A stretch of DNA of 33,611 bases. It comes from Pseudomonadota bacterium (GTDB lineage Bacteria; Pseudomonadota; Gammaproteobacteria; Steroidobacterales; Steroidobacteraceae). The translations under genes were made by a program, and so were the position numbers. Below are positions 32,041 through 33,611 of the stretch, in pieces. The number at the start of each line of letters is the position of its first letter. The first letter of the stretch is position 1. The notes under the pieces are model-generated. The model was not told where the DNA came from and searched no databases. It was given only the letters and a program-made list of their open reading frames with translations. The stretch spans positions 1 to 33,611 of the forward strand of contig JAJYUL010000040.1 of assembly GCA_021792555.1 (NCBI GenBank), written 5' to 3'.

Positions 32041-33105
32041 TCACCGCGCGCCGGGCGGCTGCGCCGCAGCGAGCCCGGAGGCGAGAAACATCGCGTCTCC
32101 GTAGCTGAAGAAGCGGTATTGGGCCGCCACCGCGTGCCGGTAGGCGCGCAATACCGCCTCGCGGCCGGCGAACGCGCACACCAGCATCAGCAGCGTGGAT
32201 TCGGGCAGGTGGAAGTTCGTCAGCAGAGCCTCCACGACCTGGAAGCGGAAGCCGGGGCGGATGAACAGGCGCGTCTCCCCCGACCAAGGCTCGATGCCGG
32301 CCGCGCCACGCTGCGCGGCCAGAAGCGCCGCAGATTCGAGCGCGCGCACCACCGTCGTGCCGACCGCCACGATGCGCCCCCCCCTGGAGCGTGCGCGGGT
32401 AATTGCCTCGCAGGTGCGGGCGCTGACGGTGATCCGCTCTGCGTGCATCACATGCTCATCGATGTGCTCGACGCGCACGGGCTGGAAGGTGCCGGCGCCC
32501 ACGTGCAGCGTTACGAAAGCCGTCTCGACCCCGCGCACGGCGATGGCTTCGAGTAGCGCCTGGTCGAAATGCAGGCTTGCGGTGGGTGCGGCGACAGCGC
32601 CGGGCTCACGGGCGAACACGGTCTGATAGCGCTGTCGATCCCACTCCTCCGGCGCACGTTGAATATACGGCGGCAGGGGCACCTCGCCCCAGCGGTCGAA
32701 GAACTCAAGAACCGGCCCTGGCATGCGCACCCGCCACAGGTCCGCTTCCCGCTCAAGCACCTCGAGCGAACCGCCCGCCGTGACGATCAGGAGGCCCGGG
32801 CGGATCGGCTTGCTCGCACGCAGCTGTACGAGCGCCTCGCGCTCAGCACAGGCCCGCTCGAGCAGCACCTCGACCTGCCCTCCGGACGGCTTCGTGCCGC
32901 GCAGCCGCGCCGCCACCACCCGGGTGTCGTTGAGGATGAGCAGATCCCGGGGGTCCAGCAGCTGCGGCAGGTCCCGCACCCCGCGGTCGGCCCAGGCCCC
33001 CGTCTCGCGATCGAGCGCGAGCATGCGGCTTGCCGAACGCACTTCGAGCGGGCTCTGGGCGATCCGCTCGGGGGGCAGGGGATAGGAGTAGTCACTGCGA
33101 TTCAC
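32041..33105 (-). CDS. queA: S-adenosylmethionine:tRNA ribosyltransferase-isomerase
   Basis: Builds epoxyqueuosine by moving the ribosyl group of SAM onto preQ1-34 in tRNA. 354 residues (E. coli 356). It starts MNRSDYSYPLPPERIAQSPL. Conserved blocks: ASRMLALDRETGAW, DLLILNDTRVVAARLRG, LTLHVGAGTFQPVRVE-like (FVTLHVGAGTFQPVRV) and LLTNFHLPESTLLMLVCAFAG. The GTG at 33105 best fits the family; a GTG at 33120 would add five residues. Neither has a clear ribosome-binding site. It is the first gene of the queA-tgt-yajC-secD-secF-suhB operon and is divergent from the tRNA-Leu gene. Confidence 0.96.
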   Translation of the reverse strand: MNRSDYSYPLPPERIAQSPLEVRSASRMLALDRETGAWADRGVRDLPQLLDPRDLLILNDTRVVAARLRGTKPSGGQVEVLLERACAEREALVQLRASKPIRPGLLIVTAGGSLEVLEREADLWRVRMPGPVLEFFDRWGEVPLPPYIQRAPEEWDRQRYQTVFAREPGAVAAPTASLHFDQALLEAIAVRGVETAFVTLHVGAGTFQPVRVEHIDEHVMHAERITVSARTCEAITRARSRGGRIVAVGTTVVRALESAALLAAQRGAAGIEPWSGETRLFIRPGFRFQVVEALLTNFHLPESTLLMLVCAFAGREAVLRAYRHAVAAQYRFFSYGDAMFLASGLAAAQPPGAR

Positions 33106-33146
33106 CCGCGCATGGTACACGGTGGGACCGGGCTTCCGGGCGCCCG

Positions 33147-33175
33147 TATCCAGCGCGCCGCCACCCCCGTATACT
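33147..33175 (+). promoter_or_regulatory. Promoter of the tRNA-Leu gene
   Basis: TATACT at 33170-33175 is a good -10 sequence; TATCCA at 33147-33152, 17 bases upstream, is a weak -35. Initiation would fall near 33182, about five bases before the tRNA 5' end. A GC-rich discriminator (CCCGCC) follows the -10, as in stringently controlled stable-RNA promoters. Confidence 0.55.
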
Positions 33176-33186
33176 CCCGCCTCAGT

Positions 33187-33501
33187 GCCCGAGTGGCGGA
33201 ATTGGTAGACGCAGCGGACTCAGACCAGACAACTTGAGCCCTCACGGAGAAATTCGCGAGGTGAAGCCCGTCAAACTCGGTAGAGGCCCTGAGGTTCTCG
33301 AGCTCATGCCGAGCCAAGCCCCGCAGCCCGCGGGGAAGGTGTAGAGAGCAGACGGCGGGCACCTACGGCCGCAAGGCTACGGTGAAGGCGTGCTCCAGCC
33401 CACGAACCCGGCCGGCTCTGGCCGCCGGGGCGACGAAAGTCGAAGCGGGATGAAAATCCGCCGCCCTTAAAAGCGTGTCGGTTCGACTCCGACCTCGGGC
33501 A
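33187..33501 (+). tRNA. tRNA-Leu(CAA), interrupted by a group I intron
   Basis: Two exons, 33187-33221 and 33453-33501, give an 84-nt tRNA; CCA is not encoded. The acceptor stem GCCCGAG pairs with CTCGGGC, the discriminator is A, the D arm starts GCGGAATTGG, and the T arm is GTCGG/CCGAC with loop TTCGACT. The anticodon stem GCGGA (33214-33218) pairs with TCCGC (33457-33461). Joined, the loop reads CTCAAAA, so the anticodon is CAA. The long variable arm (CGC...GCG) is right for leucine. The interruption falls after wobble base C34. Without splicing the anticodon arm cannot form, so the tRNA depends on intron removal. Confidence 0.93.
33222..33452 (+). ncRNA. Group I self-splicing intron (231 nt) in tRNA-Leu
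   Basis: Compact group I intron, most like the IC3 type found in bacterial tRNA genes. P1 is exon C32-U33-C34 plus AG with UUGAG (33234-33238). P2 is CCUC/GAGG (33240-33243, 33258-33261). P3 is CCGUC/GACGG (33268-33272, 33351-33355). J3/4 is AAA. P4 is CUCGG/CCGAG (33276-33280, 33309-33313). P5 has a GAG/CUC stem. P6a is CCCCGC/GCGGGG. P7 is GAGCA/UGCUC (33346-33350, 33391-33395). P8 is CACC/GGUG, capped by a GCAA loop. P9 is CCCGG/CCGGG. A last hairpin is CGAC-GAAA-GUCG. The intron ends in the required G (33452) before exon AAAA. No reading frame, hence no homing endonuclease, fits inside. Confidence 0.9.
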
Positions 33502-33611
33502 GACCCACCTCCTTTCGCTGGCGTTCGCTGGCCTCCACCAGCCTCCTCACAGTGCGCCAGCCGCCGGAGCGACCGCCCGAAGTTGACGGGCCGGTATCGA
33601 CCCCTATGCGG

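Follow-up and report, generated by a model that had tools for sequence, protein, structure and literature searches.

The window analysed here, i.e., the whole stretch of 33,611 nucleotides (contig 62 of genome G000), carries at 33187-33501 a tRNA-Leu(CAA) gene that is interrupted between C34 and A35 by 231 nt. Run plainly, ARAGORN gave no tRNA in the window, as foreseen in the first-pass annotation, which had warned that tRNA finders may miss this gene; with introns allowed, the program recovered the split gene and its 231-nt insert, and on the sequence without the insert it returned a regular tRNA-Leu(CAA). The boundaries first drawn for both tRNA halves and the insert proved right to the base (Table 1). 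Beyond the divergent neighbour queA follow tgt, yajC, secD, and secF in that order (secF by Pfam). A simple scan found no promoter-like site upstream of the split tRNA, and no homing-enzyme open frame fits in the 231-nt intron.

Table 1. Features of the split tRNA-Leu(CAA) gene and its neighbour in the window
Feature	Position	Strand	Basis
tRNA-Leu(CAA) 5' half, ending at C34	33187..33221	+	ARAGORN, introns allowed; also on joined halves
Group I (IC3-like) intron, 231 nt, starts with A, ends with G (omega-G)	33222..33452	+	ARAGORN, UAA-intron profile, covariance model
tRNA-Leu(CAA) 3' half, starting at A35	33453..33501	+	Sequence and ARAGORN; CCA unencoded
P1: exon C32-U33-C34 (33219-33221) with internal guide GAG (33236-33238)	33219..33238	+	Sequence; 94/94 CAA loci
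P3 5' strand GCCCGUC, partner 33354-33360	33266..33272	+	Pair counts, 98.3% of cells paired, 34 CAA introns
P4 5' strand CUCGG, partner 33309-33313	33276..33280	+	Pair counts, 34 CAA introns
J4/5: UAGA, then G (+5, partner U at 33304)	33281..33285	+	J-region parses
J5/4: U (-5), then CAUG	33304..33308	+	J-region parses
P7 5' strand GAGCA (guanosine-binding helix), partner UGCUC 33391-33395	33346..33350	+	Pair counts, 34 CAA introns
P8 hairpin	33361..33383	+	Pair counts, 34 CAA introns
P9-region GAAA hairpin CGAC-GAAA-GUCG	33431..33442	+	Pair counts, 34 CAA introns
queA, divergent neighbour of split tRNA-Leu(CAA)	32041..33120	-	NCBIfam

Identity of the insert

Searched over the window, Rfam gave no match at the gathering threshold, and RF00028 gave none at E ≤ 10 on 33100-33611 nor at E ≤ 1 across the whole genome. 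The same model picked up three sister introns in tRNA-Leu(CAA) genes (L058, 36 bits, E 1.3e-5; L064, 32.2 bits, E 1.7e-4; L035, 28.9 bits, E 1.7e-3), all under its 50-bit cut-off, and found nothing up to E 0.1 in four of the seven loci tested (L087, L042, L034, and L138). According to the available part of one source, a single alignment like RF00028 is improbable to cover group I diversity (PMC6125680).

A covariance model was built on the core (P3-P8/P7) of 16 tRNA-Leu(UAA) introns of other loci, none of them from a CAA gene. It scored 87.2 bits on the window (E 2.4e-20, spanning 33263-33401), matched 15 of 18 further loci, and found nothing in three empty-site loci (L009, L010, and L011). 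A sequence profile of UAA introns, with the three UAA introns nested in the CAA group omitted, matched the window at E 8.3e-30 over 33210-33462. The group I covariance score proposed in the first-pass annotation as a check thus gave a mixed outcome: RF00028, silent on the window, speaks against the intron, and the weak sister matches and the strong score of the UAA model speak for it.

A hand-drawn group I scheme of 66 pairs, with P7 as a pseudoknot, was applied to 34 CAA introns. In place, it left 91.3% of cells paired versus 29.8 to 42.7% when slid, a count that is favoured because the scheme was drawn from one row; both partners had changed in 32 of the 66 pairs, more than in any of 500 shuffles. 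Within these 34 introns, no both-side change was seen in P1 and no variation in P7, which is 100% paired and invariant, and relative to UAA introns P7 is altered on both strands (GAGCA/UGCUC versus, e.g., GACUG/CAGUC). Pair counts and model score together describe a conserved P3-P8 scheme with the P7 pseudoknot. The folding energy of the window copy was unremarkable against shuffles (z -1.48). The terminal guanosine is present (G at 33452); in the other loci this base is no independent test, because the search pattern demanded G.

These sequence comparisons place the window insert among group I introns of the tRNA type (IC3-like), with homology to those of tRNA-Leu(UAA). The name IC3 is that of the subgroup of tRNA-Leu introns at the 34/35 site, the cyanobacterial ones among them; the sequences compared here came from sources other than cyanobacteria. 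Altogether, ARAGORN and the UAA covariance model bear out what had been read from the letters, namely, that the anticodon loop of tRNA-Leu(CAA) contains a group I intron after position 34 with a terminal G, and the homology of this intron to those that occupy the corresponding place in tRNA-Leu(UAA) is upheld by trees, UAA profile, and UAA covariance model.

A C-G pair at the 5' splice site

The exon end C32-U33-C34 stands opposite GAG in 94 of 94 CAA loci (including L005 and its copy L109, both read by eye as C, the script having parsed an upstream GAG), whereas all 22 UAA introns examined have CUU opposite GAG, with the usual U.G. Since base 34 is C opposite an unchanged guide G, the splice-site pair is C-G and not U.G, a consequence that the first-pass annotation passed over; in the window it is followed by the pair A1-U. 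In the parts available, two sources describe the U-G splice-site pair as "critical and highly conserved", with an exon end that is virtually always U and exceptionally C (PMC4227781), and as a strong requisite (PMC6274277). The canonical U.G pair is therefore a near-universal but non-absolute feature, from which the CAA introns depart with C-G.

This departure would vanish if the true 5' splice site lay elsewhere, e.g., after U33, where the exon would end in U, as group I exon ends nearly always do in the accessible text of PMC4227781. We regard such a site as highly improbable: with AAAAUCC as the start of the 3' exon, a cut at U33 would shorten the anticodon loop to six bases, and in no register of the guide GAG does U33 face a G next to a G that faces C32. 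Joining C34 to A35, on the other hand, gives a regular tRNA-Leu(CAA) that matches the empty sites base for base.

Distribution of the intron

Scanning one genome per species (84,980 species) for a tRNA-Leu(CAA) split by a gap of 208 to 238 bases gave 90 stretches. Three of them (L076, L080, and L107) were set aside as chance matches, and the other 87 are real tRNA-Leu(CAA) introns spread over many families, so that the window intron is no isolated curiosity. The labels of its tree neighbours suggest a Steroidobacteraceae-like host for the window. With whole-genome loci added, the set comprises 94 CAA loci (some genomes counted twice) and 84 distinct introns of 216 to 250 nt. Carriers are mostly beta- and gammaproteobacterial, and their families include Comamonadaceae, Alcaligenaceae, Burkholderiaceae, Lysobacteraceae, Rhodanobacteraceae, Steroidobacteraceae, and Nevskiaceae. 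Single copies are labelled Alphaproteobacteria (L035), Bdellovibrionales (L092), and Mycobacterium (L044), the last being a MAG contig of 4.8 kb that is probably mis-binned, its intron being of burkholderial type.

The intron is patchy. Pattern surveys found it in 2 of 274 genomes of the class, the window's included, and the UAA intron in 6 of 274; other surveys gave 1 of 115 in one order (the window's own genome) and 1 of 8, and longer inserts were seen in 2 of 398 genomes in the phylum. Within the window's genus, G069, G091, and G054 have the CAA intron, while G038 and G018 have an uninterrupted gene. Synteny was rejected as a marker: queA was found in 30 of the 87 CAA-intron stretches (23 within 1.5 kb, all divergent) and was not found in 57. 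In one empty-site locus (L010, genome G011), the sequence downstream of the tRNA-Leu(CAA) resembles, on inspection by eye, the beginning of a phage-type integrase, which would suit a tRNA that serves as an attachment site.

A literature search conducted below full-text level and largely outside subscription papers returned no report of a group I intron in tRNA-Leu(CAA). The window thus carries a tRNA intron of group I with a C-G splice site, and its host isoacceptor is one unreported in the literature searched.

Relationship to tRNA-Leu(UAA) introns

In the window's genome, the tRNA-Leu(UAA) gene likewise has an intron at 34/35, of 264 nt (C5:87235-87586; L154/L159), which RF00028 misses too at E ≤ 1. 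Outside the P1 and J columns its best CAA match reaches 61%, so the two introns of this genome are not recent copies of each other. The tRNA-Leu(UAA) gene is likewise split in G069, G091, G054, and G038, and G018 is without either intron. One Burkholderiales MAG (L058) carries both split genes about 325 bases apart.

In our trees, the CAA group lies among proteobacterial and phage UAA introns, hence the CAA introns most likely come from tRNA-Leu(UAA). Outside the CAA set, the closest kin in a comparison without cyanobacterial introns were tRNA-Leu(UAA) introns from proteobacteria and viruses. The transfer from a cyanobacterial or plastid UAA intron envisaged in the first-pass annotation stands as far as kinship with UAA introns is concerned, but its donor does not: the direct donor was probably neither a cyanobacterium nor a plastid.

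The trees further suggest that introns moved between UAA and CAA genes. With P1 and J left aside, one UAA intron (L138) shares 86% identity with CAA introns, which suggests movement back from CAA to UAA. A single origin of all CAA introns was rejected (p 0.042 on the full set of columns; p 0.0015 once P1 and J were dropped). Constraints that were not rejected are the main CAA group without the three nested UAA introns (p 0.384), the main group plus L035 (p 0.188) or plus L092 (p 0.186), and the group without L138 (p 0.31). The placement of L023, L028, L035, and L092 is uncertain owing to long branches.

The splice-site receptor J4/5-J5/4

In the Tetrahymena ribozyme, A207 and A114 in J4/5 recognise the U-G pair, as given in the part of PMC10020454 available. 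We numbered the J bases +1 to +5 after the P4 5' strand and -5 to -1 before the P4 3' strand; the pairs +3/-3 and +4/-4 would correspond to the tandem A.A receptor, an equation made by position. At +5/-5, the 84 CAA introns have G/U (81) or A/U (3), the 24 UAA introns C/C (17) or A/C (7), and the five tRNA-Ile(CAU) introns A/C (4) or C/C (1). Hence J5/4 position -5 is a pairable U in 84 of 84 distinct C-G introns and C in 29 of 29 bacterial U.G introns. Position -4 is A in 28 of the 29 U.G introns versus 55 of the 84 CAA introns (the others being 17 C and 12 G), and the window intron itself has C at -4 and G at +3. Two further CAA copies that came to light later (L171, read by eye, and L172) also have U at J5/4.

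A rule strict in both directions, by which U.G goes with C and C-G with U, was perfect in the 113 bacterial introns but was broken by viral UAA introns: of the 42 from viral contigs, 20 have C at -5 and 21 have U, one being unparsed, and those with U belong largely to one phage-intron group. A huge-phage UAA copy (L217) has A and U at the J positions by eye. What remains is a one-sided rule in which C-G was never seen without a pairable U, whereas U.G was seen with both J types. On these sequence patterns, the J5/4 difference may compensate for the C-G pair or may simply accompany it.

Against a functional tie, J5/4 U and C-G could be linked through shared descent alone, to which we give even odds. 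The CAA introns fall almost entirely (82 of 84) in one tree group, most constrained-tree tests fail to reject fewer moves, and the phage UAA group combines U.G with a CAA-type J. Moreover, trees built without P1 and J provided three independent contrasts on firm branches, all concordant but too few for significance, and concordance went from 3.0/3 to 2.2/3 once 30 distinct viral rows were added, with none opposed and sign tests non-significant. Descent alone accounts less well for L035, which is otherwise UAA-intron-like yet has a CAA-type J, and for L138, which has a UAA-type J despite its otherwise close identity to CAA introns. Nor does it readily explain that in a scan of 218 columns, C-G versus U.G, positions -5 and +5 were the best separators (accuracy 1.000 and 0.982; next 0.947). 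All five tree-misplaced rows (CAA, L035 and L092; UAA, L138, L023, and L028) follow their host tRNA at -5/+5, as they do in 6 of the 218 columns, these two among them. The rejection of one CAA clade without the P1 and J columns (AU test) points the same way.

A broader scenario, which we put forward as doubtful, is that introns pass from one leucine tRNA gene to the other, UAA or CAA, perhaps carried by phage tRNA genes, and that the receptor difference lets an intron cross the isoacceptor barrier, U.G tolerating either receptor and C-G needing the new one. Phage tRNA arrays with a split tRNA-Leu(UAA) are possible carriers in this respect.

A proposed model for splicing of the tRNA-Leu(CAA) intron

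We propose the following sequence of events. The exon end C32-U33-C34 would pair with the intron guide GAG, an external guanosine would cut after C34, and the freed C34 would attack after the terminal G, yielding a normal tRNA-Leu(CAA) and a free 231-nt intron. Such introns would descend from those at the same site of tRNA-Leu(UAA); upon the move to the CAA gene, U.G would have become C-G with the guide G unchanged, the splice-site receptor loop J4/5-J5/4 carrying a matching difference in the form of a pairable U at J5/4. We are confident in this reading as a whole, i.e., a UAA-derived group I intron between C34 and A35, spliced via a C34-GAG P1 and endowed with a matching J5/4 difference, and on the sequence evidence splicing is very likely.

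The distribution of intact copies points in the same direction. With one fixed pattern, no uninterrupted CAA copy was seen in the window's genome nor in 18 of 20 other carriers, and in four of four Vallotia symbionts (1.1 to 1.2 Mb) the split CAA gene is the only one that the pattern sees. In most carriers, the cell would thus probably be left without this tRNA if the intron did not splice. UUG can in principle also be read by tRNA-Leu(UAA), which may make the CAA tRNA dispensable, and the insert could then be a decayed, non-splicing relic in a tRNA pseudogene, with the UAA tRNA reading both leucine codons. The failure of RF00028 on the window copy, a splice-site pair that is not U.G, and the coexistence of an intact tRNA-Leu(CAA) in two of the 20 carriers, both Bordetella (L170, Bordetella genomosp. 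12, and G500, Bordetella sp. BOR01), would fit decay. We nevertheless find it very improbable, given that 84 distinct sequences, drawn from numerous genera, keep both tRNA halves and the core intact, that the other 18 carriers and the window's genome show no intact copy by pattern, and that the UAA tRNA of the window's genome is itself split, so that no spare is visible.

Significance

The recognition of the 5' splice site by group I ribozymes is a textbook question with the U.G wobble at its centre. The CAA introns offer 84 distinct natural C-G sequences, and their close relatives with U.G sometimes share a cell with them (the window's genome; L058). Since these differ from their U.G relatives in identifiable receptor bases, the role of J4/5 becomes directly testable. 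Plain tRNA finding and the Rfam cut-off miss such genes, and genomes will therefore appear to be without tRNA-Leu(CAA).

Comparison with known introns

tRNA-Leu(UAA) group I introns are known from cyanobacteria and plastids, and a tRNA-Ile(CAU) group I intron is known from Azoarcus. The window intron resembles those of tRNA-Leu(UAA) in its 34/35 site, size, core, terminal G, and guide GAG. It differs from them in its CAA isoacceptor host and in C-G instead of U.G; CAA introns have U at J5/4 with G or A at J4/5 whereas UAA introns have C with C or A, and the P7 of the main CAA group is also unlike that of UAA introns. tRNA-Leu(UAA) introns also occur in Beggiatoa and Thiomargarita, and tRNA-Ile(CAU) introns in Acidovorax and Burkholderia, as stated in the available parts of PMC4853749 and PMC8450103, respectively.

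The tRNA-Ile(CAU) introns are kin in their core, the UAA model scoring 108.9 bits on L133 and 46.7 bits on L123, and they share the C at J5/4 with UAA introns, but they are inserted after U36 and have a U.G splice-site pair. Among relatives we found five copies (L123-L126 and L027/L133), two of them in the window's genus (G054 and G069). Four of these tRNA-Ile(CAU) intron genes are wrongly labelled tRNA-Gln(CUG) by ARAGORN.

On viral contigs (L173-L214), tRNA-Leu(UAA) is split at 34/35 by group I introns in 42 of 43 stretches. Many lie in phage tRNA arrays, e.g., L179 6431-6693, with 22 other tRNAs and a homing endonuclease nearby, and L211 1650-1960, with 27. An uncultured 735-kb phage (LR756501.1, a record without annotation) has a tRNA-Leu(UAA) split by a 205-nt intron (L217 594-884). 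In Gordonia phage Daredevil (NC_048021.1, about 41.8 to 42.1 kb; L216 1074-1385), an unannotated tRNA, Lys(UUU) per ARAGORN, holds a 238-nt intron, which at E ≤ 1e-5 is the only match to the window intron among 50,697 phage records (one phage, two accessions). As of 2014, all known phage introns lay in protein genes despite many phage tRNA genes, according to the accessible part of PMC3984707.

Among bacterial group I elements, an exon end other than U is also seen in group B IStrons, and as described in the part of PMC4227781 available, their exon ends in G, their U-G pair is shifted, and their partner is a transposon. Unlike them, the CAA intron has no gene inside its 231 nt and keeps its C34-G pair in register.
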